From a virus: a stretch of 32,623 bases of DNA. Shown one piece after another: positions 1,879 to 30,710 of this stretch. The stretch's first letter is position 1. Every line of letters begins with the position of its first letter. The notes below the pieces were generated by a model. That model worked only from the letters and a program-made list of their open reading frames with translations. It did not search any database and was not told the DNA's origin. The translations under genes were made by a program, and so were the position numbers. The stretch covers positions 1-32,623 of IMG/VR virus record IMGVR_UViG_3300009009_000034. One strand, 5' to 3'.

Positions 1879-2028
1879 ATGGCAAAAGCAAAAACTGGTC
1901 TGAATAAGAGTTCTTATATTCCCGGTCCACCTAAGAAGTCTCGTCAAGGAGATGGAATGGGAACCAAATATGCCGCCTCTTCTCGCAATGGGGCACGTAA
2001 GAAGTATAGGGGTCAAGGAAAAGGATAA
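1879..2028 (+). CDS. small, highly basic conserved cyanophage protein, 49 residues
   Basis: The protein begins MAKAKTGLNKSSYIPGPPKK and ends GARKKYRGQGKG. It is dominated by Lys, Arg, Gly and Ser with no hydrophobic core, so it is probably disordered on its own and could bind nucleic acid or acidic proteins. I recall near-identical short proteins (SSYIPGPPKK, SRNGA-K-YRGQG) across cyanomyoviruses, without a known function. It has a good ribosome site (GGAG about 12 bases upstream). Its stop codon shares an A with the next start (TAATG, 2026-2030), so the next gene is probably translationally coupled. Confidence 0.75.
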   Translation: MAKAKTGLNKSSYIPGPPKKSRQGDGMGTKYAASSRNGARKKYRGQGKG

Positions 2029-2657
2029 TGGCATACTTAAACCATAGTCTTCCAGATTGGTCTTGTTACATTCGTAATGAGTTTCTTTTCAATCACCAAA
2101 AAGGACATGGTGAAGTAACCAAATGTGATGTACATTCTGTCGCGAGTATTGAAAAAAGAGTTCCTCTATTTGAGGCATTTCTTGAAAATGGCGTGAATTG
2201 GACTCGGCGTCCTCTTCACGCTTTTTGTTGGAAACCAGATGCTCCAATTGAACCACTTGAAGACGTTATGTACTGGGATTGCTTTTCACCATACATTGAT
2301 GTTCAAAAACGTGCTCGTCTTGCAGGATTGCAAGCAGAATTAATTCGCCCAGATGGAAAAAAGATTCTCGGAACCTACATGTTTACTCTTGATTGGTCTT
2401 GGGAAAATAAAGGAACAACAGATTTTAATTTTTCAGAGACTCCTGAGCATAAATGCGCTCATTTATTCAAGGTTGAGACTGGAAATTATTATGCATATCC
2501 AAATAATAGAATAATTTGGTATGATAATGCTTGGACATTCAATAGAATTAAAAAAAATCCAGGTTATGAAATTGACATGACAACATATTCGGTTGAAAAT
2601 AAGAGAAAAATTGAAACATCTGATCACTACATATATGAAATTACCGATTTAAAATAG
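2028..2657 (+). CDS. conserved cyanophage hypothetical protein, 209 residues
   Basis: The product begins MAYLNHSLPDWSCYIRNEFL and ends HYIYEITDLK. I recall it as a conserved protein of T4-like cyanophages near the speD-gp25 region, but I cannot give a function. It is unusually rich in aromatic residues (many Trp, Tyr and Phe) and has no membrane segment or signal peptide. A central segment (IRPDGKKILGTYMFTLDWSW, about residues 107-126) and a later one around NYYAYPNNRIIWYDNAW look like beta strands, so a compact beta-rich fold is likely. It follows the basic 49-residue gene with a one-base overlap, and a late promoter box begins immediately after its stop. Confidence 0.75.
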   Translation: MAYLNHSLPDWSCYIRNEFLFNHQKGHGEVTKCDVHSVASIEKRVPLFEAFLENGVNWTRRPLHAFCWKPDAPIEPLEDVMYWDCFSPYIDVQKRARLAGLQAELIRPDGKKILGTYMFTLDWSWENKGTTDFNFSETPEHKCAHLFKVETGNYYAYPNNRIIWYDNAWTFNRIKKNPGYEIDMTTYSVENKRKIETSDHYIYEITDLK

Positions 2658-2658
2658 A

Positions 2659-2666
2659 AATAAATA
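2659..2666 (+). promoter_or_regulatory. T4-type late promoter box (AATAAATA)
   Basis: The octamer differs from the T4 late consensus TATAAATA only at the first base, which also varies in cyanophages. It lies just after the stop of the 209-residue gene and 44 bases before the speD ATG at 2703. Transcription would begin near 2672, which argues against the TTG at 2673 being the start codon of speD. Confidence 0.6.
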
Positions 2667-2702
2667 AATTTTTTGATAAAAACTGAATTGGAACAGTATT
2701 CA

Positions 2703-3029
2703 ATGGGTAGGCACCTACTATTAGAGGTGTATGATGTTAATTTTGAAGCGATTAATGATGTAGAATCGCTTCAAAATGCAATGATTGTTGGAATAAATCG
2801 TGCAAAAATGACGATTTTAAATACTTTTTCCCATTGTTTTATTCCTCAAGGATGTACAATCGTTATTGCTCTTGCGGAAAGTCATGTTTCTTGTCACACA
2901 TGGCCAGAAAATGGGTGTTTATCTGTAGATGTGTACACTTGTGGTGAAGGAAACCCCAAGTTAATAGCACTTGAGATTCTAAAATACTTAAATTCTGACA
3001 ATTACAACATTAGAGAAATAAAACGTTAA
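2703..3029 (+). CDS. speD: S-adenosylmethionine decarboxylase proenzyme (pyruvoyl type), 108 residues
   Basis: The enzyme converts S-adenosylmethionine to decarboxylated AdoMet, the aminopropyl donor for spermidine and related polyamines, in the host cytoplasm. The protein begins MGRHLLLEVYDVNF, the typical start of short bacterial SpeD. The self-cleavage site is E59-S60 in AESHVSCHTWPE; Ser60 would become the pyruvoyl cofactor. His65 and Cys80 (in DVYTCG) match the processing and catalytic His and Cys in spacing from the serine (+5 and +20, as in the Thermotoga enzyme). So the gene looks complete and active. An upstream TTG (2673) would add 10 residues, but it coincides with the expected transcription start. 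No polyamine synthase (speE) is in the window, so the product would feed a host enzyme. speD is a known auxiliary metabolic gene of cyanophages. Confidence 0.93.
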   Translation: MGRHLLLEVYDVNFEAINDVESLQNAMIVGINRAKMTILNTFSHCFIPQGCTIVIALAESHVSCHTWPENGCLSVDVYTCGEGNPKLIALEILKYLNSDNYNIREIKR

Positions 3030-3097: not shown

Positions 3098-3349
3098 ATG
3101 TCTAATTTACCAGTTGATAGAAACAAAGATTACATGTATCAGATGTGGGGAACCACTTCACTTACTTCAGATTATGACAGTTTAGGTCAAAAATCAAAAG
3201 TAATTCAGGAAATCATGCACGATGATGTTCCCAAAAATAAACATCACCTGAAAGAGCAAACTCAACTTCATCAAATTATTCGTAACGATTCTGATTATGA
3301 TGATTGGGAATATGGTACAGATGCAAACTATGGTTTTTCCTGGAAATAA
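3098..3349 (+). CDS. hypothetical phage protein, 83 residues
   Basis: The product begins MSNLPVDRNKDYMYQMWGTT and ends ANYGFSWK. It is polar, rich in Asp, Tyr and His, with no hydrophobic segment. A central run (VIQEIMHDDVPKNKHHLKEQ) and a following TQLHQIIR may be helical, and the tail DYDDWEYGTD is acidic and aromatic. I do not recognise a domain; short proteins of this kind sit just ahead of gp25 in cyanomyoviruses. It has one of the clearest ribosome sites in the window (AGGAG, 6 bases from the ATG). A late promoter follows 1 base after the stop. Confidence 0.7.
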   Translation: MSNLPVDRNKDYMYQMWGTTSLTSDYDSLGQKSKVIQEIMHDDVPKNKHHLKEQTQLHQIIRNDSDYDDWEYGTDANYGFSWK

Positions 3350-3350
3350 A

Positions 3351-3358
3351 CATAAATA
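3351..3358 (+). promoter_or_regulatory. T4-type late promoter box (CATAAATA) for gp25
   Basis: CATAAATA starts 30 bases before the gp25 ATG at 3381, with transcription expected near 3364. It probably drives the baseplate block gp25, gp6 and the 3995-residue gene, which follow with gaps of 1 and 2 bases and no other promoter box between them. Confidence 0.65.
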
Positions 3359-3380
3359 ATATTAGAAAAACTTTTATTCA

Positions 3381-3782
3381 ATGGAAATTACAAGGATATC
3401 AAGAGCATTTAAAGATATTAGTTTGTCTTTTGAACCTCATCCTGTAACAAATGACTTGCCTATTTTAAAAAATGAGTCTGCAATACGCAGAGCAATTCGC
3501 AATCTGGTTGAAACTATCCCAACAGAAAGATTTTTCAATTCTCTAATCGGATCAGACGTTCGTTCTAGTTTATTTGGATTTGTTGATGTCGGAACCGCCT
3601 CAATAATTTCAGATCAAATTGAAACTACCATTAATAATTATGAGGAAAGAGTAGAAAATGTTAGAGTTTTTGTTGACCCTCAACCAGATTTAAATTCATT
3701 TAATGTAACTGTTAATTATGAAATCATTGGGCAAGATTTTCCAATACAAGAATTCAATTTTATATTAGAGGCAACAAGATAA
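3381..3782 (+). CDS. gp25: baseplate wedge protein gp25
   Basis: gp25 is a small core protein of the baseplate wedge that binds gp6 and helps start sheath assembly; it belongs to the GPW/gp25 family shared with contractile injection systems. At 133 residues it matches T4 gp25 (132). The family core is visible as ESAIRRAIRNLVETIPTERFF (residues 32-52, given here as the family pattern 'N-AI--AI-NL--T--ER-F') followed by LFGFVDV and the segment INNYEERV. The family's Glu-Pro-Arg core motif reads E88-E89-R90 here, so the proline is replaced by glutamate. One base separates its stop from gp6, as expected for partners made together. Confidence 0.92.
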   Translation: MEITRISRAFKDISLSFEPHPVTNDLPILKNESAIRRAIRNLVETIPTERFFNSLIGSDVRSSLFGFVDVGTASIISDQIETTINNYEERVENVRVFVDPQPDLNSFNVTVNYEIIGQDFPIQEFNFILEATR

Positions 3783-3783
3783 A

Positions 3784-5715
3784 ATGCCTTTTACTAAGTT
3801 TACAAATCTAGATTTCGATCAGATAAAAACTTCAATAAAAGATTACCTCAGAGCAAATTCCAATTTTACGGATTTTGATTTTGAGGGATCTAATTTTTCT
3901 GTTTTAATTGATACGTTAGCATATAATACTTATATTACTGCATTTAACACTAACATGGTAGTTAATGAATCCTTTTTGGATTCTGCAACTCTCAGAGAAA
4001 ATGTAGTCTCACTGGCAAGAAATATAGGGTATGTTCCTAGGTCCAGAACAGCATCGAATGCAGAAATATATTTTGAGGTTGAGACTTCTAGTCAAAGACC
4101 TTCTTTAACTTTACAGTCTGGAGTAGTTTGTGTCGGATCCGTAAGTGACACAACTTATATTTTTTCAATACCAGAAAATATAACAACTACGGTTAATAAT
4201 GGTATTGCTAGATTTGGTAGTAAAGAGACTCCTATAAAAATATATCAAGGAACTTTATTGTCAAAGCAGTTTACTGTTGATGGATCATTAGATCAAAGAT
4301 TTATTTTAGATAATTCTTTCATAGATTCTTCGACAATATCAGTTTATGTTAGAGGTCCATCAGAGAGTGGTGGATTAGGAACGAAATATAATAAAGTTGA
4401 AAATATTATCAATGTAAATTCTTTATCCGAAATATTTTTGATTCAAGAAGTACAAGATGAAAAATATGAATTATTATTCGGTGATGGATATTTTGGTAAA
4501 AAACTTCTTAATCAATCGGTAATCAATACAAATTACATTGTTACTGATGGCATTGAAGGTAATGGAGCTTCTGAGTTTTCTTTTGTTGGATCATTTAAAG
4601 ATTCTTTGGGAATTACCGTTATTCCTACCACTTCAATTACAATCAATACTGTTACTTCTTCTCAAAGTGGAGGTGATATTGAACCAATATCTTCAATAAA
4701 ATATTATTCACCAAAACTATATTCTGCACAATATAGAGCAGTTACATCTAGAGACTATGAAGTTATCATACCTCAAATATATCCAAATGCAGAATCAGTT
4801 TCTGTTGTTGGTGGTGAAGAATTAAATCCTCCTCAATTTGGAAAAATTTTAATAAGCATAAAACCAAAAAATGGAGATTATGTTTCAGATTTTGATCAAG
4901 AACTTATACTTAATAGATTAAAAAGTTACTCTGTTTCTGGAATAAATCAAGAAATAGTACCTCTTAAAATACTTTATATTGAAGTTGACACATCAGTTTA
5001 TTATAATAATAGTCAAGTTTCAAGTATTGATGAACTAAAAACTTTAGTTTATGATACGCTGTATTCTTATTCAAAATCTTCAGAAATTAATAAATTTGGT
5101 GGAAGATTTAAATACAGTAAAATTGTTCAGTTGATTGACAATGTAGATTCTTCAATAACTTCTAATATTACTAAAATTAAAATTAGAAGAAATTTAAAAG
5201 CATTGTTAAATCAATTTGCACAGTATGAATTGTGTTTTGGAAACAGATTTCATATCAATCCAAACGGGTATAACATCAAAAGTACTGGATTTTATATTGA
5301 TGGTATAAACGAACCACTTTACTTAACAGATACTCCAAATAAAACTAGAGATAATTCTAAATTAGATGGATCAGGAAAGGGTATAATTTCCATTGTCAGA
5401 AAAAATACTGACGGAAGTTATGAAGTTATCTCAGAGTCTGGAGGAGTAATTAATTACACTGACGGAGAGATCAATCTCAGTGGAGTTATTATAACAAAAA
5501 CAGAAAACCCTAACAATATAATTGAGATACAAGCAGTTCCAGAGTCAAATGATATTATTGGATTGAAAGATTTATATTTGGAATTTAACCTTGAAAATAG
5601 TAAAATAAATATGGTAAAAGACGTAATTTCTTCAGGTGAAGATATATCTGGGGTAACCTTTGCAAAAGACTACTATACATCAAGTTATTTTAATGGAGAT
5701 CTAGAGAGGAAGTAA
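3784..5715 (+). CDS. gp6: baseplate wedge protein gp6
   Basis: gp6 forms the inner ring of the baseplate and links neighbouring wedges; its middle region belongs to the baseplate J-like family. The N-terminus, MPFTKFTNLDFDQIKTSIKD, and the following FEGSNFSVLIDTLAYNTYI and NESFLDSATLRENVVSLA are the most conserved gp6 signatures in T4-like phages. Residues around LYSAQYRAVTSRDYEVII (about 313-330) mark the J-like domain junction, where the chain folds back. At 643 residues it is close to T4 gp6 (660). The last 150 residues are less conserved. It lies between gp25 and the gp7-slot giant, the same order as in T4. Confidence 0.93.
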   Translation: MPFTKFTNLDFDQIKTSIKDYLRANSNFTDFDFEGSNFSVLIDTLAYNTYITAFNTNMVVNESFLDSATLRENVVSLARNIGYVPRSRTASNAEIYFEVETSSQRPSLTLQSGVVCVGSVSDTTYIFSIPENITTTVNNGIARFGSKETPIKIYQGTLLSKQFTVDGSLDQRFILDNSFIDSSTISVYVRGPSESGGLGTKYNKVENIINVNSLSEIFLIQEVQDEKYELLFGDGYFGKKLLNQSVINTNYIVTDGIEGNGASEFSFVGSFKDSLGITVIPTTSITINTVTSSQSGGDIEPISSIKYYSPKLYSAQYRAVTSRDYEVIIPQIYPNAESVSVVGGEELNPPQFGKILISIKPKNGDYVSDFDQELILNRLKSYSVSGINQEIVPLKILYIEVDTSVYYNNSQVSSIDELKTLVYDTLYSYSKSSEINKFGGRFKYSKIVQLIDNVDSSITSNITKIKIRRNLKALLNQFAQYELCFGNRFHINPNGYNIKSTGFYIDGINEPLYLTDTPNKTRDNSKLDGSGKGIISIVRKNTDGSYEVISESGGVINYTDGEINLSGVIITKTENPNNIIEIQAVPESNDIIGLKDLYLEFNLENSKINMVKDVISSGEDISGVTFAKDYYTSSYFNGDLERK

Positions 5716-19290: not shown

Positions 19291-22200
19291 ATGGCACAAA
19301 AACTCAACTTAAATATTAATCCTTATTATGATGATTTTGATAGGAACAGTAGTTTTTATAAAGTATTATTTAAGCCAGGATATCCAGTACAGGCTAGAGA
19401 ATTAACAACTTTACAATCAATTTTACAAAATCAAATTGAGTCATTTGGTAGTCATATATTTAAAGAAGGATCCATGGTAATTCCTGGATCAATTACATAT
19501 GATGATAGTTATTTTTCAGTAATTATAAATTCAAGTCATTTAGGGACTAGCGTCTCTTTATACTTGGCAGAACTAGTAGGAAAGAAAATACAGGGAGAAA
19601 ATTCTGGATCTGTTGCAGTAGTTAAAAATTTTAATATTCCTCCAGACGAAGGTGTAGAAAATGTAACTTTATATGTAAAATATCTTTCTTCTGGAAATGA
19701 TTTATCAACTACTCAATTTGAGTCTGATGAATCTTTAATTTTAATTGAAGAAAATATCGTTTATAGCGGTATAACTATTAATTTTGGAAGCACCGTAGCA
19801 ACTGTTTCTTCCAATAAAGCAACATTTACCGGATCTGCGGTTAATTTAGATAAAGGAGTATATTTTATTAGGGGAATGTTTATAGACGTTCCTAACTCAG
19901 TTGTAATATTAGATCCATATTCAAATTTAACATCTTACAGAGTAGGATTAACTGTTCAAGAAGAATTAATATCTTCATTTGATGATTCCAGTTTAAATGA
20001 TAATGCAAGAGGTTTTTCAAATTATGCTGCTCCTGGAGCAGATAGACTAAAAATAACAGCATTTTTAACTAAAAAGTTGTTGAATGATTATGATGATAAA
20101 AATTTCATAGAGATATTAAGAATTGAAAATGGTATACTCAAAAAAATTCAAGATACAACATCATATTCGCTAATCAAAGATTATATCGCACAAAGAACTT
20201 ATGATGAGTCTGGAGATTATTGTGTAAATAAGTTTGACATTGAAGTTTTAGAGTCTTTAAATGATAGAGTATCAAATAATGGCGTATATTTAGATACTGA
20301 AACAACTCAATCAAATAATATTCCTACAGATAATGACATTTGCGTTAAAGTTTCCCCAGGAAAAGCATATGTGAGGGGATATGATGTAGTTGTTCCATCT
20401 TCTATTCTTCTAGATGTTCCCAAACCAAGAGACACTAAAACTAGAGAGAGTAGTTTAGTTCCTTTTGAAATGGGAACTTTAATGAGATTGAATAATGTTT
20501 ACGGAACTCCATATTTAAATTTATTAGGATCTAACAATGAAGTTGAACTCTATAATCAAAGAACAAATTCTGTTTCTTCAGGAACTGGAACTTGGATTGG
20601 AAAAGCAAGAATTTATTCATTTGGTTTAACGGATGCTCCTTACTCTAACAATTCTTCTTCTTGGGACTTATACTTATATGACATTCAAACTTTTACCAAA
20701 ATAATTATAAATGAACCACCTCCTCAGGATCTTATAGAGGGATCTTATATTCGTGGATTAAATAGTGGATCTTCTGGTCATGTTCACTTAATAACGGGAA
20801 ATACTTTATATCTTATCCAAACTTCAGGAATGTTTTCTGTTGGTGAAAGTTTTTCTATAAATGAATCTCTATTAAATACAAGATCTATAGTCTATTTGCA
20901 AGAATATTCAACAAATGACATTAAGTCTTTATGGCAAGATTGTACATCACTAACTTCTGGTGCTTTAGTAACAGATTTTGTAGCTGATGTAGTGTTAACA
21001 AAAAAAGTTCCATTCGGATTTAATGTTACTGATCAAATTACAATTTCAACTTCCGGTGATGTAACATGTCCAGGAAGAAATTTCTTAGGAATTCGTAGCG
21101 ATACCGTAATACAATATCAAATACCTGGAGAAAGTTTAGAAACATTCAATAGAGTTGTTTCAGTTTCTTCAGATGGACTTTCAATGACTGTTGGTGCTTG
21201 TCCTTCTGTTTCTAATGTTTGTAGTGGTTCTTTGCCAGGAGTTACAACTTCGGTTTTATTTAAAGTTGGAACACCAGAAATTATAGATGATTCTAAGTCA
21301 TCATTATATTCACCTTTATTTGATAAAAATATATCTTCTGTAGATTTGTCAAGTGCCAATTTAACAATTAATTCTCAAATCAGATCTCTTTCTACAGATA
21401 GTTTAGGTTCTTTAACTGTTAATGTTTCTAGCACTGGAATTAGTAACGTATTCTTTGAGAATTATGATGCAGATAGATACTCAATATTCTATTCAGATGG
21501 AACTATTGAAGATTTAACCTCTGATCAATTTACTTTAAGTGCAGATGGAACGGAAATTACTTTAAAAGGATTACGAGTAAGTCAAAGTGGAAATGTTGCA
21601 TTAAATGTGACATTAAGAAAATCTGTTGTACAAAATGCCACAAAAACTTATGTAAGAAGTGAGAGATTAATTATTAACAGCACTTCATCTGGATCATATT
21701 CAAGTATTTCTGGATTAACAACAAGTTTTTGGTATGGAACTAGAGTTGAAGATTTTGAAATATGCTTAGATGTTCCTGATGTCACTAATGTTTTAGCAGT
21801 TTATGAATCTTTAAGTTCCAGTGACCCATCAATTGATACATTAACCATTGTTGCAAATCTTGGTTTAGATACAAAATCAATAGTTGGTGAAAAAATAACT
21901 GGATCTTCTAGTGGTGCAGTGGCGCAATTAGTAACTCGGGATTCTTCATCAAAAGTAGGATTTGTATATCTAAATGATGCTTACTTTAAAATTGGTGAAA
22001 CAATTACATTTAAAGAATCCGGAATAGTTACAGAAATACAAATTATTGAAAAAGGTAATTATGTTGACATAACAGATAGATTTATTTTAGATAAGGGTCA
22101 TAGAAAGCAATATTGTGATTATTCTAGAATTATTAGGAAAAAAGACTCTCTTCCACCATCTAGAAAGATATTAGTAGTTTTTAACTATTTTGATATACTA

Positions 22201-25200
22201 TCTAATAATAAAGGGGATTTGCTAACAGCAAATTCTTATGATGAAGAGAGATTCTCCAAAGAAGTTCCAATTTTACCAGACAATATTAGAGCATCTGACA
22301 CTTTAGATTTTAGACCAAGAGTTCAAAAGTTTACAGTTGGAAATGGATCTCCATTTAGTTTTAATTTAAGATCATTTGATAATACTGTAGCAACATCAAT
22401 AATAAAACCTAATGAAAGTTCTATAATAGGTTATGATTATTATTTACCTAGAATTGATAGAGTTATTTTAAACAAACTAGGACAAGTGTCCGTTGTATTA
22501 GGTTCTTCTTCTGATACTCCAGTAGCACCTCTTAATGCCGAAGAAGCGATAGATTTAGCAACTATTCACCACCCAGCGTATCTATATGATGTAAGAGATT
22601 CTAAAATTAATATTATTGATAACAGAAGATATACCATGAGAGATATCTCTAAATTAGAGAATAGAATTAAGAATTTAGAAGTTGTTACTTCTTTATCTTT
22701 ACTTGAATTAGATACTAAATCTCTTCAAATACAAGATGCTGATGGTTTAACTAGATTCAAATCTGGATTTTTTGTTGATGATTTTAAAACTAGATCATTG
22801 ATTGATTTTAAAAATCCAGATGTTAAAGTTGACGTTGACACATCTATTGGTGAAATGTCATCAGCAACAGATAATTGGTCATTTAAATTACAAATTGCTC
22901 CCCAATCTGGTGTTGATATTTCTCCATTAGATTTTTCTCAAGATATTCCATTATTAGATCCAAATGTTAGAAAAACTGGAGATTTAATAACTCTAGATTA
23001 TTCCGAAGATAGTTGGTTAGAGCAACCTTTAGCGTCCGATGTTGAAAACATAAATCCGTTTAGTGTTGTTGAATATATTGGATCAATCAAATTAAATCCA
23101 TCATCAGACAACTGGTTCAGAAATGAATATACAACTAATGGTAGAGTATTATCCACGGGTGTAGAACAAATTTCGGAATTTGTTGAAAGTGTAACTTTAA
23201 ATACTGATGTTGATCCTTATTTAAGGTCTAGAAATTACTCATTTATTGCAGAGTCTTTAAAATCATTTACTCAACATTATGGGTCATTAGATGATGTTAG
23301 TTCCATTGATGTCGTACCAAAACTTCTTGAGATTACTATGCTTTCTGGAGCATTTGTTTCTGGAGAAGATGTTGAGGGTTATATTGGAACACAAAAAGTA
23401 ATTACTTTCAGATTAGCAACTGCAAATCATAAGTCAGGTCCTTATGACCAACCTTCAAAAGTTTATGGTAAAAATCCATATGATAGAACTCAAACAGTTC
23501 CTTCTTCATATGCTTCATCATCATCTTTATTGAACATTGATACACAATCACTCGCGGAAGAATCTGTAACTAGATATGGTGGATATGTTACAACTGAAGT
23601 TACTTTAGTTGGAAAAACTAGTGGCGCAAGTGCAAAAGTTTCTAATAACAGATTAGTTTCGGATGAAGTTGGAAATATTTTGGGGGTATTCTTCATAAGA
23701 AATCCAAATTCTACTCCAGCTCCACAATTTAAATTTAAATCTGGTCAAAAATTATTTAAATTAAGTTCAATTCAAAATGGAGCAACAACATTACCCGGTG
23801 ATATTAGATTATCAAGTAATGCTTTTGGAAGTTTTACTGGAACTGGAATTATTCAGACACAGACAACAAACGTTGTTCAAGTAAGATATGACCCACCACC
23901 ACTGCCACCAACTCCAGAACCAGTAGTATTGACGGAATATGTATATGTCCCAACGACTACTAATGTAACTGAAGTAACTAATGTAATTCAGAATGTTACT
24001 CCAACTGCATCCACAACACCCACAAATCAACCAATATACGTAAATAGTAGAGGAACAGTTTACGGTCAATTCAATCAGAATTTACTGGTAGAATTATATT
24101 ATGACAATAACCCCAAAGATAAAGATATTAAGGATTTAGCAAAAGCTGCCGGGATTAAAAAATTAGATATAGGTGGTAATGGAAATATTAGTCAGTCTCA
24201 AGGAAATAAAATTAGAAATTTTGTTGCAAATGAAAAAGATCTTAATTTAAAATCTGTAGTATCTGATCGCAGTCCTAAGTCTATTGGCGGTAAAGGTGTA
24301 TCCATGAGTGATAAAGTTGCCATTGAAAGGGCAACGAGCACAATTTCTCCAAATATTTCTCCAGTTAACAATGATCCAAAGGGAGGAAATAAAAAATCAT
24401 CAGATAACAATAAAAATGCATCATCATCCAATAAAAAGTGTGCTAAAAAGGATCCTCTAGCACAAACATTTGCAACTGACCCTGGAAATGGATTCTTTTT
24501 GACATCTGTTGATCTATATTTTGCAACTAAAGATCCAATAGAAAAAGTAACAGTACAACTAAGAACAGTGGAGTTGGGAACACCAACAGATTTACTTGTT
24601 CAAGATTATTCTGAAATTTCTTTAGACTCTGAAGATATTATCACTTCAGATGATGGTTCTTTACCAACTAAAGTCACTTTCCCATCTCCAATTTATTTAC
24701 AGGGAGACACTGAATATGCATTGGTTTTACTTTCACCAACAACAGATAAGTATCAAGTCTGGACTGCCACTATGGGTAGAAAAACCATAGCAACTAAATC
24801 ATTACCTGATGTTGAAAGTGTAATAATTGGAAGGCAATATTTAGGTGGAAGTTTATTTAAGTCACAAAATGGAACCATTTGGTCGCCAAATCAATATCAA
24901 GATCTCAAATTTAAACTCTATAGGGCAAAATTTACACCTCAAAGAGGACAGGCAGTTTTCTATAACCCTTCTTTAGTATATAGTGATCAGAAATCTCCAA
25001 CAAATCCAGTAAAAGTACTACCAAGAAAATTAAAAGTTGGAATTACTACTACAAGTAATTTAAATTCTATTTTAACTGTTGGTAGAAGAGTAAGTGAAGG
25101 TCCAAATGTTAATAATCCAGGACCTTATGGTTATATTGAGAGAGTTGGTGGTCCATTAACATATCCATCTGGAGGTGTTTCAATATCAAATGTTGGAATT

Positions 25201-26910
25201 GGTTATTCTGTAGGATCTTTCTCCAGCGTTCCATTATATTCAATATCTGGTTCTGGAAGTGGTGCAACAGCAGATTTAACTTTCAACGCATCTGGAAATC
25301 TTACCACAGTTTCTATAGCATCAAGCGGAAATGGATATTCTGTTGGAGATGTTCTAGGCATAACAACAGCGAATGTTGATAAGGGAAGAAATGCTCAAAT
25401 ATCAGTAACTGCTATAGATGGTAGTATTGATACTTTATATTTAACCAATGTTCAGGGAGAGGAATTTACTCAGAATTCTAATCTTCTACATTATAACACT
25501 TCAAGTTATTCTTTATCTGGAACAACTATCAGAAGTAATTCTTCAGTAATAAGTCCATTATATTCCGGTAACGTATTCCAAGTTACACAAATCAATCATT
25601 CGATGCATGGAGATAATAACAAAGTATCTCTCAAGGACATTGAGCCAGATTCGTCAATTGTTTATTTAACTTCCAATTTAGATATTAATTCTAGCACATT
25701 ATTTGTTTCTGATGTAACTTCATTTTCTACTTTTGAAGGGGTTTCAACATCCAGAGGATATCTTAAAATTAATAGTGAAATAATATTCTATAATAATATT
25801 GATGCTGGATCAAATTCTCTAACAATTGGTACAAGAGGAGTTGATGGAACACAAATTAGATCTCATAATTCTGGAGATTTTGTAAGGAAATATGAAATTG
25901 CTAATGTTTCTCTGAGAAGAATAAACACAACATTTGATTTACCCACAACATCTTCTAACCCAACTCTTAAAAAAGCAGCAGATTTAGATAATTTTTATCT
26001 GGAATTCAATAGGACTGAAAGATCTGGTAGTGACAATCAATTAAGTTTTAGTGATGAAAAAGTTGTTGGTGGGTCTTCCGTAGGTATTTCTCAAAATTAT
26101 CAGTATAGTTCTATTGATCCTCAAATTAATGCCATAACTCCTGGAAAAGAAACTTCAGTTTCTGCCCTTCTGAGAACAGTTAGTGGAACTAGTGCAAGTG
26201 GTAATGAACTTTCCTTCATTGATCAAGGATATCAAAATGTTCAATTAAATGCGATAAACTACTTCAATACCCCAAGATTAGTTTGCTCAGAAATAAATGA
26301 GTCTACTAGATTGTCTAGTTTACCAAGAAATAAATCTATTACTCTCAATGTTTTATTAGAAAGACCGGTAAATGATGCTTATCTTTCTCCAGTAATAGAC
26401 TTACAAACCGCTTATATAGTACTTGGAAGAAATCGTTTAAATAATCCAATTTCTAATTATCCTACAGATTCTAGAGTAAATCTTTCTTTTGGAGATCCAC
26501 ATAGTTCAGTTTATATTTCAAATAGAGTTGATCTAAAACAATCATCCACAAGTTTGAAAGTTTTATTATCTGCTTGTAGACCTTTTGGTTCAGATTTTAG
26601 AATTCTTTATAAATTGTTTAGACCAGATACCGCTGAAATTGATCCCTCTTATATACTTTTCCCAGGTTATGATAATATGAGGGACACTGATAACGATGGA
26701 TTTGGTGATTTTGTTATTGATTCGGCGTTAAATAGTGGAAGACCCGATACAAAAGTAAGAGAAAGTTCTACTGATGAGTTTTTAGAGTATCAATTTACAG
26801 CAGATAATTTAGACCCATTTACGGGATTTGCTATTAAAATAGTGATGTCATCAACTAACGAATCATCTCAGTTAAGATTTAAGGACCTAAGAGCAATAGC
26901 ACTAGCATAA
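19291..26910 (+). CDS. giant DUF4815-type virion structural protein, 2539 residues
   Basis: This is probably a peripheral baseplate or host-contact protein, since it fills the slot of T4 gp9-gp12. The N-terminal region (YYDDFDRNSSFYKVLFKPGY, then ARELTTLQSILQNQIESFG) matches the phage family DUF4815. At about 1116 a coiled-coil-like stretch, MRDISKLENRIKNLEVVTSL, is followed by FKSGFFVDDFKTRS. A proline-rich linker (1535-1545) and a Ser/Lys/Asn-rich linker (about 1693-1720) precede a second conserved block starting DPLAQTF at 1721 (then GFFLTSVDLYFATKD). Two GxGY repeats (IGYSVG, NGYSVG) and a GFP-like module near 2134-2188 follow. D2465-T-D-N-D-G-F-G-D resembles a calcium-binding thrombospondin-3 loop. 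The end, LRFKDLRAIALA, is a common terminus of such proteins. The frame is intact throughout. Confidence 0.85.
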   Translation: MAQKLNLNINPYYDDFDRNSSFYKVLFKPGYPVQARELTTLQSILQNQIESFGSHIFKEGSMVIPGSITYDDSYFSVIINSSHLGTSVSLYLAELVGKKIQGENSGSVAVVKNFNIPPDEGVENVTLYVKYLSSGNDLSTTQFESDESLILIEENIVYSGITINFGSTVATVSSNKATFTGSAVNLDKGVYFIRGMFIDVPNSVVILDPYSNLTSYRVGLTVQEELISSFDDSSLNDNARGFSNYAAPGADRLKITAFLTKKLLNDYDDKNFIEILRIENGILKKIQDTTSYSLIKDYIAQRTYDESGDYCVNKFDIEVLESLNDRVSNNGVYLDTETTQSNNIPTDNDICVKVSPGKAYVRGYDVVVPSSILLDVPKPRDTKTRESSLVPFEMGTLMRLNNVYGTPYLNLLGSNNEVELYNQRTNSVSSGTGTWIGKARIYSFGLTDAPYSNNSSSWDLYLYDIQTFTKIIINEPPPQDLIEGSYIRGLNSGSSGHVHLITGNTLYLIQTSGMFSVGESFSINESLLNTRSIVYLQEYSTNDIKSLWQDCTSLTSGALVTDFVADVVLTKKVPFGFNVTDQITISTSGDVTCPGRNFLGIRSDTVIQYQIPGESLETFNRVVSVSSDGLSMTVGACPSVSNVCSGSLPGVTTSVLFKVGTPEIIDDSKSSLYSPLFDKNISSVDLSSANLTINSQIRSLSTDSLGSLTVNVSSTGISNVFFENYDADRYSIFYSDGTIEDLTSDQFTLSADGTEITLKGLRVSQSGNVALNVTLRKSVVQNATKTYVRSERLIINSTSSGSYSSISGLTTSFWYGTRVEDFEICLDVPDVTNVLAVYESLSSSDPSIDTLTIVANLGLDTKSIVGEKITGSSSGAVAQLVTRDSSSKVGFVYLNDAYFKIGETITFKESGIVTEIQIIEKGNYVDITDRFILDKGHRKQYCDYSRIIRKKDSLPPSRKILVVFNYFDILSNNKGDLLTANSYDEERFSKEVPILPDNIRASDTLDFRPRVQKFTVGNGSPFSFNLRSFDNTVATSIIKPNESSIIGYDYYLPRIDRVILNKLGQVSVVLGSSSDTPVAPLNAEEAIDLATIHHPAYLYDVRDSKINIIDNRRYTMRDISKLENRIKNLEVVTSLSLLELDTKSLQIQDADGLTRFKSGFFVDDFKTRSLIDFKNPDVKVDVDTSIGEMSSATDNWSFKLQIAPQSGVDISPLDFSQDIPLLDPNVRKTGDLITLDYSEDSWLEQPLASDVENINPFSVVEYIGSIKLNPSSDNWFRNEYTTNGRVLSTGVEQISEFVESVTLNTDVDPYLRSRNYSFIAESLKSFTQHYGSLDDVSSIDVVPKLLEITMLSGAFVSGEDVEGYIGTQKVITFRLATANHKSGPYDQPSKVYGKNPYDRTQTVPSSYASSSSLLNIDTQSLAEESVTRYGGYVTTEVTLVGKTSGASAKVSNNRLVSDEVGNILGVFFIRNPNSTPAPQFKFKSGQKLFKLSSIQNGATTLPGDIRLSSNAFGSFTGTGIIQTQTTNVVQVRYDPPPLPPTPEPVVLTEYVYVPTTTNVTEVTNVIQNVTPTASTTPTNQPIYVNSRGTVYGQFNQNLLVELYYDNNPKDKDIKDLAKAAGIKKLDIGGNGNISQSQGNKIRNFVANEKDLNLKSVVSDRSPKSIGGKGVSMSDKVAIERATSTISPNISPVNNDPKGGNKKSSDNNKNASSSNKKCAKKDPLAQTFATDPGNGFFLTSVDLYFATKDPIEKVTVQLRTVELGTPTDLLVQDYSEISLDSEDIITSDDGSLPTKVTFPSPIYLQGDTEYALVLLSPTTDKYQVWTATMGRKTIATKSLPDVESVIIGRQYLGGSLFKSQNGTIWSPNQYQDLKFKLYRAKFTPQRGQAVFYNPSLVYSDQKSPTNPVKVLPRKLKVGITTTSNLNSILTVGRRVSEGPNVNNPGPYGYIERVGGPLTYPSGGVSISNVGIGYSVGSFSSVPLYSISGSGSGATADLTFNASGNLTTVSIASSGNGYSVGDVLGITTANVDKGRNAQISVTAIDGSIDTLYLTNVQGEEFTQNSNLLHYNTSSYSLSGTTIRSNSSVISPLYSGNVFQVTQINHSMHGDNNKVSLKDIEPDSSIVYLTSNLDINSSTLFVSDVTSFSTFEGVSTSRGYLKINSEIIFYNNIDAGSNSLTIGTRGVDGTQIRSHNSGDFVRKYEIANVSLRRINTTFDLPTTSSNPTLKKAADLDNFYLEFNRTERSGSDNQLSFSDEKVVGGSSVGISQNYQYSSIDPQINAITPGKETSVSALLRTVSGTSASGNELSFIDQGYQNVQLNAINYFNTPRLVCSEINESTRLSSLPRNKSITLNVLLERPVNDAYLSPVIDLQTAYIVLGRNRLNNPISNYPTDSRVNLSFGDPHSSVYISNRVDLKQSSTSLKVLLSACRPFGSDFRILYKLFRPDTAEIDPSYILFPGYDNMRDTDNDGFGDFVIDSALNSGRPDTKVRESSTDEFLEYQFTADNLDPFTGFAIKIVMSSTNESSQLRFKDLRAIALA

Positions 26911-27691: not shown

Positions 27692-28522
27692 ATGGCAAAA
27701 CCAGCCTCTAGACAACAACTTATAGATTACTGTTTGAGGCGTTTAGGTGCCCCTGTATTGGAAATTAATGTTGATGATGATCAAATAGATGATTTAGTTG
27801 ATGATGCCCTTCAATACTTCCAAGAACGCCATTTTGATGGTGTTGAAAGAATGTATTTAAAATATCAAATAACTCAAGATGATATTAATAGGGGAAGTGC
27901 AAAATCTACGAATGGTGTTGGTATTGTTACCACAACCGCAGTATCTACAACTGGTACACCATTTAACTGGTACGAAAGTTCAAACTTTATACAGGTTCCA
28001 GATTCAGTAATTGGAGTAGAAAAAGTTTTTAAATTTGATACTAGTTCAATATCTGGTGGAATGTTTAGTATTAAATATCAATTATTTTTAAATGACTTAT
28101 ATTATTTCAATTCAGTTGAGCTTCTTCAATATGCTATGGTAAAAAGTTATCTTGAGGATATTGATTTTCTTTTAACAACTGACAAACAACTTAGATTTAA
28201 TAAGAGACAAGATAGATTATACTTAGATATTGATTGGGGATCTCAAAAAGCAGGAAATTTTTTAGTTTTAGATTGCTATAGGATTTTAGATCCAAATAAT
28301 TTTACTCAAGTTTATAATGATAGTTTCTTAAAAAGATATTTAACTGCATTAATTAAGCGCCAATGGGGTCAAAATTTAATTAAGTTTAGAGGAGTTAAAT
28401 TGCCCGGTGGAATAGAATTGAATGGTAGAGAAATATATGAAGATGCAGAAAGAGAATTGGATAAATTAAAAGAAACCATGTCTTTAGAGCACGAACTTCC
28501 ACCATATGATTTTATTGGGTAA
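27692..28522 (+). CDS. gp13: neck protein gp13
   Basis: gp13 forms, with gp14, the neck ring that closes the filled head and receives the tail. The N-terminus MAKPASRQQLIDYCLRRLGA followed by PVLEINVDDDQIDDLVDDAL and YFQERHFDG is the hallmark of gp13 in cyanophages. Later conserved parts include DCYRILDPNNF and FLKRYLTALIKRQWGQNL (about residues 218-235), and a C-terminal ELNGREIYEDAERELDKL. At 276 residues it is a little shorter than T4 gp13 (309). Its stop shares an A with the gp14 start (TAATG), indicating coupled translation. Confidence 0.92.
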   Translation: MAKPASRQQLIDYCLRRLGAPVLEINVDDDQIDDLVDDALQYFQERHFDGVERMYLKYQITQDDINRGSAKSTNGVGIVTTTAVSTTGTPFNWYESSNFIQVPDSVIGVEKVFKFDTSSISGGMFSIKYQLFLNDLYYFNSVELLQYAMVKSYLEDIDFLLTTDKQLRFNKRQDRLYLDIDWGSQKAGNFLVLDCYRILDPNNFTQVYNDSFLKRYLTALIKRQWGQNLIKFRGVKLPGGIELNGREIYEDAERELDKLKETMSLEHELPPYDFIG

Positions 28523-29913
28523 TGGCACTTAATCCTTTCTTTTTAAACGGTTCTCCAGGAGAGCAACGACTAGTACAAGATTTAATTAATGAACAGTTAA
28601 AAATATACGGTATTGAAGTAACTTATATACCAAGAAAATTTGTCAGAAAACAAACTGTAATTAAAGAAGTAATGTCATCAAAATTTGATGACTCATTTTT
28701 ACTTGAGGCTTATGTTAATACGTATGAGGGATATGGAGGATCTGGAGATATTTTAACAAAATTTGGTATGAGTTTAAGGGATGAATTAACTTTAATCATA
28801 TCAAAAGAACGATTTGAAGATTTTATATCCCCATTTTTAGCACAAATGGTTGATGATGGCATAGAAATATCCAATAGACCTAGAGAAGGAGATCTAATTT
28901 ATTTTCCTCTTGGTCAAAGATTATTTGAAGTAAAATTTGTTGAACATGAACAACCTTTTTATCAACTTGGAAAAACTTATGTTTATGAATTAAAATGTGA
29001 ATTATTTGAATATGAAGATGAAGTTATTGATACTTCAAACGAAGAAATAGATTCAAGAATTGGTAATTTAGGATACATATCTACTCTGCAATTAATTGGC
29101 ACGGGAACAACTGCGTTGGCGCAACCAATAATGGGAACTGGATATATTCAAAAAATATATTTAAACAATGATGGACGTGGTTATAAAGCCTCTCCAACAA
29201 TAGGAATAACTTCAGCACCACCTGGAGGAACTAATGCATCTGCAGTTGCCTTTATAAGAAAAGTTGGCGGAGTTTATTCCATAGAAAAAATTCTCATGTC
29301 AAATGCGGGCATGGGTTATACAGTACCTCCTACAATAACAATTAGTGGTGGTGGTGGATCTGGAGCTGCAGCAACTTGTTCAATTAATACAAATCAATTT
29401 GGCGTTGTTAGAATTCCTATGTTAAGTGGTGGCGTAGGTTATAGCACTGTTCCCAATGTAAATATAGTTGGGCAATATGATGGAGAACAGGCAAAAGCAG
29501 TAGCAATTTTGGGGAATAACGAAACTATAAGTTCAGTATTAATAGAAAATGCCGGTAGCGGATATGAAGATCCTCCACAGGTTGTAATTGGAAACCCTGC
29601 AATAATTACAGGTATTGGCACTTACGTATTTAATGAAGAAGTTATAGGATCAAGATCTCAAACAAAAGCAAAAGTTAAAAATTGGGATAATGATACCAAG
29701 ATTCTTAAAGTGTCATTTATATCTTCAGATAAAGTTGAAAATGGATTTTATCCCGGAGAAATAATTATAGGACAAAAATCTGGTGCAATTTATTCTTTAA
29801 AATATTATGAAGGAATGGATTTATATGATAAATATAGTGAAAATGATGAAATTGAAACAGAGGCAGATCTTATTTTAGATTTTTCAGAGTCAAACCCATT
29901 TGGAACATACTGA
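28522..29913 (+). CDS. gp14: neck protein gp14 with an inserted repeat domain
   Basis: gp14 works with gp13 in the neck. The N-terminal half (MALNPFFLNGSPGEQRLVQD, then YEGYGGSGDILTKFGMSLRD and YVYELKCELFEYEDEVIDT) is clear gp14, and the C-terminus (YEGMDLYDKYSENDEIETEA, ending SESNPFGTY) resumes it. Between them, about residues 195-375, lie four GxGY repeats with Tyr at 221, 266, 307 and 348, 41 to 45 residues apart, each followed by a Pro-x-(I/V) strand and small-residue-rich strands. This accounts for the length of 463 against 256 in T4. The repeats probably form a beta structure decorating the neck. The stop overlaps the gp15 start (TGATG). Confidence 0.92.
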   Translation: MALNPFFLNGSPGEQRLVQDLINEQLKIYGIEVTYIPRKFVRKQTVIKEVMSSKFDDSFLLEAYVNTYEGYGGSGDILTKFGMSLRDELTLIISKERFEDFISPFLAQMVDDGIEISNRPREGDLIYFPLGQRLFEVKFVEHEQPFYQLGKTYVYELKCELFEYEDEVIDTSNEEIDSRIGNLGYISTLQLIGTGTTALAQPIMGTGYIQKIYLNNDGRGYKASPTIGITSAPPGGTNASAVAFIRKVGGVYSIEKILMSNAGMGYTVPPTITISGGGGSGAAATCSINTNQFGVVRIPMLSGGVGYSTVPNVNIVGQYDGEQAKAVAILGNNETISSVLIENAGSGYEDPPQVVIGNPAIITGIGTYVFNEEVIGSRSQTKAKVKNWDNDTKILKVSFISSDKVENGFYPGEIIIGQKSGAIYSLKYYEGMDLYDKYSENDEIETEADLILDFSESNPFGTY

Positions 29914-30710
29914 TGTTAGGAACTTACTATTATCACGAAATAATCAGAAAAACAATAATTTCTTTTGGAACTGTATTTAATCAAATACATATAGTTCATA
30001 AAGATAGTAATGATGTAAACATCAGTCAAATTAGAGTTCCTTTGTCATATGGTCCAACACAAAAGTTCTTGGCAAGATTGCAACAACAACCAGATTTAAA
30101 CAAACCAATTCAAATAACATTGCCAAGAATGTCATTTGAAATGAATTCAATTGAATATGATCCATCAAGAAAAACTTCAGTAACTCAATCCTTTAAATCT
30201 CTTGATGGTCAGAATTTAAAGAAAGTTTATTTGCCAGTTCCTTACAATATTGGTTTTGAATTGAATATTTTAACTAAACTAAATGATGATGCGCTCCAAA
30301 TAATTGAACAAATTTTACCTTATTTTCAACCTTCTTTTAATTTAACCATAGATTTAGTAGATTCTATAGGAGAAAAAAGAGATGTTCCTATTACATTGAA
30401 CAATATTTCTTTTCAAGATGATTATGAGGGAGATTTTTCAACCAGAAGAGCTTTAATATATACTTTACAATTTACAGCAAAAACATATCTATTTGGCCCG
30501 ATATCTGATTCTACGGAAGGATTAATTCGTAAAGTGCAAGTTGATATGTATACTAATACCGATATTTCTACATCTAAGAGAGAAGTTAGGTACACGGTTG
30601 TTCCTGATCCAATTGATGCAGATCCCGGTGATGATTTCGGATTTAATGAAACTTGGAATTTCTTTGATGATTCTAAAGAATATAGTCCAACTCAGCAAAG
30701 TGACATTTGA
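29913..30710 (+). CDS. gp15: tail terminator / proximal sheath stabiliser gp15
   Basis: gp15 forms the hexameric ring that caps the tail tube and sheath and joins the tail to the neck. The recognisable blocks are MLGTYYYHEIIRKTIISFGT, the segment RVPLSYGPTQKFLAR, then ITLPRMSFEM, the stretch VPYNIGFELNILTKLNDDAL followed by QIIEQILPYFQPSF, and a late DYEGDFSTRRALIYTLQFTA. The length (265) agrees with T4 gp15 (272). It starts inside the gp14 stop and ends 7 bases before gp16, with an acidic C-terminal tail. Confidence 0.94.
   Translation: MLGTYYYHEIIRKTIISFGTVFNQIHIVHKDSNDVNISQIRVPLSYGPTQKFLARLQQQPDLNKPIQITLPRMSFEMNSIEYDPSRKTSVTQSFKSLDGQNLKKVYLPVPYNIGFELNILTKLNDDALQIIEQILPYFQPSFNLTIDLVDSIGEKRDVPITLNNISFQDDYEGDFSTRRALIYTLQFTAKTYLFGPISDSTEGLIRKVQVDMYTNTDISTSKREVRYTVVPDPIDADPGDDFGFNETWNFFDDSKEYSPTQQSDI

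Follow-up and report, generated by a model that had tools for sequence, protein, structure and literature searches.

The neck of T4-like phages is usually regarded as a conserved connector, and the locus analysed here raises the question of why a gp14 neck protein should carry a regular array of repeats, and what such an array might do at the joint between head and tail. The window (the whole of IMG/VR record IMGVR_UViG_3300009009_000034, a virus fragment of 32,623 bases) has the genes for gp13, gp14, gp15 and gp16 in the T4-like order, and the features that place the protein are the following.

27692..28522, + strand: gp13 (head-tail adaptor Ad2), the partner ring (PHROG match)
28522..29913, + strand: gp14 (neck / head-closure Hc2) open reading frame, 463 AAs (Pfam, PHROG and PDB sequence matches)
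28522..29055, + strand: conserved gp14 core, residues 1–178 (PF11649; T4 gp14 fold match; identity to relatives)
29913..30710, + strand: gp15 (tail sheath stabiliser / terminator), partner of the gp14 arm in T4 (PF16724, E 1e-90)

Pfam family PF11649 (T4_neck-protein) matches residues 3–178 of the window gp14 at E 8e-32, with 111.1 bits against a curated cut-off of 25, and T4 gp14 is the only match among PDB sequences, spanning query residues 3–172. When the core is compared with PDB structures by VIA-align, T4 gp14 chains take the top rank (Z 10.5–10.8, about 31% identity; core pLDDT is middling), the best of them with Z 10.8 and an rmsd of 4.2 over 121 residues; for the core, both Foldseek and VIA-align find neck proteins, that of T4 included. 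Among annotated relatives the closest is the gp14 of Synechococcus phage S-SRM01, whose source is Serangoon Reservoir (62.7% identity, full length). Next come an unannotated single-cell contig (59.5%) and then P-SSM2 and P-SSM5 (59.1%). The window gp14 is a typical representative of a gp14 variant that is modular and widespread. Two features elsewhere in the window are recorded in passing: a 2539-AA virion protein (19291–26910) has a choice-of-anchor R domain at its residues 1711–1836, and ferredoxin-like and S-adenosylmethionine decarboxylase-like genes (2028–3026) lie directly upstream of the baseplate genes.

Beyond the core, the protein can be divided as follows.

29071..29109, + strand: first strand of an accessory small β-barrel, residues ~184–196 (AlphaFold2 strand 185–192; weak barrel match; S-PM2 / P-SSM4 alignment)
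29110..29616, + strand: inserted GxGY repeat array, residues 197–365 (empty-site alignment; unit profile; pLDDT ~95)
29146..29259, + strand: repeat unit 1, residues 209–246 (unit profile)
29281..29400, + strand: repeat unit 2, residues 254–293 (unit profile)
29404..29520, + strand: repeat unit 3, residues 295–333 (unit profile)
29527..29622, + strand: repeat unit 4, shorter, residues 336–367 (unit profile)
29617..29814, + strand: remainder of the accessory barrel, residues ~366–431, also matched by the cyanophage gp8 family (phrog_438, structure match, alignments)
29815..29910, + strand: acidic C-terminal tail with a DFSESNPFG motif (median 66% identity to relatives)

The GxGY motif stands at residues 218, 263, 304 and 345, with spacings of 45, 41 and 41, and there is a stray GTGY at 205; five GxGY within a 190-residue stretch were reached in none of 20,000 shuffles. 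A unit profile of 41 positions, built from relatives with the window's own units left out, gives the array stretch 131.6 bits, against 11.7 for the best shuffle (2,000 made, 1,992 scored). The earlier note, which was made from the sequence of the window, had seen four regular GxGY units 41–45 residues apart, and these figures bear it out; its coordinates of 29100–29620 were also nearly exact, but the insert measures 169 residues and not 180–200. In an AlphaFold2 model built on 67 sequences, residues ~200–360 mostly have pLDDT values of 85–96 (about 95), and the units mostly show a long-short-long pattern of strands each; the pTM of 0.51 means that the orientation of the array relative to the core is not predicted. 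A single-sequence model of the array alone (mean pLDDT 38) was left unused.

Neither Pfam nor NCBIfam has a curated repeat family over the array, no clear solved fold was found for it among the Foldseek and VIA-align matches listed from the PDB, and its profile met only chance-level matches among PDB sequences (E ≥ 0.19). A scan of bacterial genomes with the array profile, which covered one peptide pattern only, confirmed no relative. Units of this type are matched in many virion families, including large tail and baseplate proteins (PHROG). At the threshold used, the unit profile found no units in the window's other open reading frames that were tested, and GxGY motifs and PHROG matches in those frames suggest that diverged units are present there. 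Foldseek matches in BFVD, possibly obtained through the array, include DNA-stabilising proteins of the P22 Gp10-like type from uncultured phages, as well as a Sylvanvirus protein. Several glycine, GxGY and proline positions of the array are invariant or nearly so across 14 aligned relatives, and the median identity to the window among 66 relatives is 76% for the core, 49% for the array, 51% for the accessory module (368–430) and 66% for the tail. These values place the array under a constraint of shape, yet with lower conservation and more freedom to change than the core.

Two cyanophages whose gp14s have no array reveal the insertion site. The S-PM2 protein (292 AAs) matches the window gp14 at residues 5–178 and 361–463 and nowhere between, and excision of the array lifts the alignment score from 33 to 199, with best boundaries at 208–366; for P-SSM4 the best excision is residues 197–365, and the score rises from 28 to 196. 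A similar scan with S-SM2 gave unclear boundaries. These empty-site alignments argue that the host of the insert is a second small module (~184–196 plus 366–431) and not the core. The module is related to a baseplate protein: phrog_438, the cyanophage gp8 family, matches residues 366–446 at E 7e-6. VIA-align weakly relates the range from 184 to ~431 to small barrels such as eIF2-gamma (Z 5–6), and, as read from short aligned lengths of ~70 residues, this match may pair 184–195 with 373–431 across the array. Judging from these alignments, then, the array sits in the first loop of what is probably a second small β-barrel in the C-terminal arm of gp14, and S-PM2 and P-SSM4 keep the barrel without the array. 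The repeat domain had been described as an insertion that interrupts conserved gp14 sequence, and it is an insertion relative to T4, but the core is not interrupted. The acidic C terminus that was said to resume after the array is present as the DFSESNPFG tail, but the remainder of the accessory module (~366–431) intervenes. The tail has weak similarity to the T4 C terminus (2 of 1,000 shuffles are as good); the parallel comparisons with CBA120 (429 of 1,000) and K368 (38 of 1,000) give no or marginal support.

In T4, residues 178–256 of gp14 become ordered on gp15 after tail joining, according to PMC12270204. The array might be a structural brace, turned back onto gp15, onto the first ring of the sheath or onto the capsid vertex so as to stiffen the joint, with no contact with the host. 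Its position in the arm that contacts gp15 in T4 (PMC12270204) favours such a role, as does the fact that the accessory barrel is common to the baseplate protein family gp8; the faster divergence of the array relative to the core, and the ability of S-PM2 and P-SSM4 to manage without one, speak against it.

How widely the array occurs was examined with six related-locus scans and a set of reference phages, which yielded 495 loci, 490 of them with a gp14 core open reading frame; after the five loci without one and the incomplete frames had been dropped, 361 distinct complete proteins remained. Selected phages served as seeds for the scans, and each scan contributed its best 80 loci, so the counts that follow are not unbiased frequencies. 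Total gp14 length runs from 213 to 1109 AAs across the set, and the number of units recognised by the profile follows size classes: none in all 61 proteins shorter than 290 AAs and all 51 of 290–330 AAs, two in 60 of the 61 of 330–400 AAs (one in the other), four in 123 of the 136 of 440–500 AAs (three in 12 and two in one), and four to eight in all 14 of 500–700 AAs. The 38 proteins of 700–1200 AAs have two to seven, a range in which divergent units may have been missed. The array is thus quantised, with none, two or four units and more in the long forms, and the increments of two suggest, though they do not prove, that the units act as pairs. The gp14s of T4, CBA120, K368, Mosig, P-SSM4 and S-PM2 have no units, and those of T4 and a pelagiphage are much shorter. 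The array is not common to all T4-like phages, and the possibility that the segment is an extended native region of gp14 found in all of them is rejected. The constancy of four units in the 440–500 AA class speaks for a brace, and gp14 lengths of up to 1109 AAs speak against one.

A tree of the gp14 N-domain was made from 57 rows (80% clustering plus references), with architecture classes assigned by protein length; its deep groupings rest on long branches and are uncertain. All 43 gp14s of at least 457 AAs fall in one starred clade. The longer forms need six changes on this tree, at least three of them forced by starred branches, and the class with one or two units needs two changes, both forced. 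The array-less S-PM2 lies beside S-RIM32, and the array-less P-SSM4 beside ACG-2014d. The two-unit arrays of S-RIM32 (203–282) and ACG-2014d (185–264) follow the barrel's GEEVxG strand, whereas the window array precedes the equivalent FNEEVIG strand; two different loops of one barrel have therefore been used. Such recurrence, together with the like units in many virion families, is what might be expected if a mobile GxGY virion repeat had lodged in a tolerant loop and persisted without a selected role. We consider this near-neutral accretion improbable: the array has been kept across the starred clade, with its 43 representative rows, and its glycine, GxGY and proline positions are conserved.

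Some relatives carry a further domain within the array. In the 763-AA gp14 of Sf-FS3, a Laminin_G_3 domain (31.2 bits against a curated cut-off of 27.6) occupies residues 322–448, between array units, and the gp14s of S-SSM7 and S-SSM6a have the same insert at 49.8% identity; the window gp14 has no match to Laminin_G_3 (PF13385) in Pfam at E ≤ 1. A domain of this type is hard to place except on the outside of the ring, so it probably points outward. The earlier note had read the array as a decoration of the neck, and this is the best reading, well supported by the Laminin_G_3 domain inside the Sf-FS3 array and by the variable number of units and variable length. The lectin-type insertion also counts against a brace, which on all this evidence we regard as unlikely, though a real contender.

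Other enlarged neck proteins turned up in the same survey. Two IMG/VR contigs encode gp14s of 1109 (L222) and 1022 AAs (L250), with extra stretches, and in the L222 protein an additional GxGY-like stretch lies within a region whose L250 counterpart lacks it. Pelagibacter phage Mosig has a gp15 of 532 AAs (locus 3319–4914), with a C-terminal extension that ends in a GxxY-type unit and that nothing else in the phage collection matches; the other 67 gp15s measured among Mosig-like loci have 255–269 AAs. A lectin domain suspected by eye in the Mosig extension and in the 1022–1109 AA gp14s received no Pfam call, BLASTP found nothing between the Sf-FS3 and Mosig stretches (E 0.09), and no lectin domain is claimed for the Mosig extension or for these gp14s. 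The gp13 of S-CAM9 (locus 768–1889; 373 AAs) has an extra stretch that is absent from the other gp13s compared, another insertion in a neck protein. A weak, below-cut-off T4_neck match in a 621-AA frame of Tenacibaculum phage PTm1 (~207297–207842) hints that enlarged neck proteins may also occur outside the cyanophages.

The decoration had further been proposed to replace fibritin; it would then act as neck whiskers that hold the long tail fibres and help to attach them. Fibritin_C is indeed missing from each of the 11 cyanophage or pelagiphage records examined, S-PM2 among them (the T4 control is positive), and a 2010 review lists wac among the tail genes missing from cyanomyoviruses and mentions one unpublished St Kilda isolate with whiskers (PMC2984593). 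On the other hand, the window gp14 has no Fibritin_C match in Pfam at E ≤ 1, and T4 fibritin binds domain III (190–239) of gp13 and not gp14, as described in PMC12270204. The gp13s of the window and eight other cyanophages align 29 of 50 residues with T4 190–239, a weak result, as those of CBA120 and K368 align 26. Both S-PM2 and P-SSM4 lack fibritin as well as the array, and no collar is visible on S-PM2 in published cryo-EM, as reported in the same review (PMC2984593); S-PM2, lacking fibritin, array and visible collar alike, argues that a phage without fibritin does not need the array as a substitute. No array-bearing cyanophage with a visible collar was found in print. A functional replacement of fibritin is therefore rated low, and we think it very doubtful, chiefly on the strength of S-PM2, P-SSM4 and the gp13 attachment in T4.

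We think it probable that the array is part of a lineage-specific display module on the neck, a stalk or scaffold on gp14 that serves most likely in glycan binding or in holding fibres. On this proposal gp14 would keep its T4-like core and form the six-fold neck ring, and its C-terminal arm, which in T4 rests on gp15 once the tail has joined, would have gained a small accessory β-barrel in most of the cyanophages compared. The first loop of this barrel would, in the lineage of the window, carry a rigid array of four GxGY β units, and six copies, if the number is as in T4, would project sideways at the level of the gp14–gp15 junction as a short collar around the head-tail joint. The array itself would be a building block of general use in virions, serving as stalk or scaffold and either binding by itself or, as in some relatives, carrying a lectin-type domain. 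Its most likely use would be weak multivalent binding of the side of the virion to glycans of the host surface or the environment, or a grip on the long tail fibres. What speaks for adhesion or fibre holding, as against a brace, is the faster divergence of the array, its open-ended length and the lectin-type insertion. A broader idea is plausible at somewhat less than even chances: the essential head-closure ring may have become an interchangeable six-fold display platform, in which either of two barrel loops can receive an array and an array can itself receive lectin-type domains, so that nested insertions might supply a second, side-on adhesin or a fibritin-independent holder of tail fibres.

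If the display module is real, the necks of a widespread group of viruses, both marine and freshwater, are decorated in modular fashion, and a natural series is at hand for the role of a neck appendage after fibritin loss: S-PM2 and P-SSM4 without an array, P-SSM2 and S-SRM01 with one, and S-SSM7 and Sf-FS3 with an array and a lectin-type domain. No description of an array insert in gp14 was recognised in the literature searched, mostly by the titles listed. Among known systems, T4 gp14 (PF11649; Hc2; PDB 9MKB, 9LU4–9LU7) shares with the window protein the sequence and fold of the core (1–178) and the gene order 13-14-15, but it has 256 AAs, no array, a much shorter C-terminal arm and no accessory barrel that can be seen in the alignment. 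An array that points outward would lie in the same part of the virion as T4 fibritin (gpwac), which makes the whiskers and collar, but fibritin is an unrelated protein, is attached to gp13 and not to gp14, and is absent from the relatives tested. The ~763-AA gp14s of Sf-FS3, S-SSM7 and S-SSM6a have the same core, array units and tail as the window protein and differ in the Laminin_G_3-type domain within the array. The cyanophage gp14s of phrog_460 (P-SSM2, S-SRM01 and S-SM2) are homologous over their full length, share the array of four units and the tail, and differ from the window gp14 only by sequence divergence.
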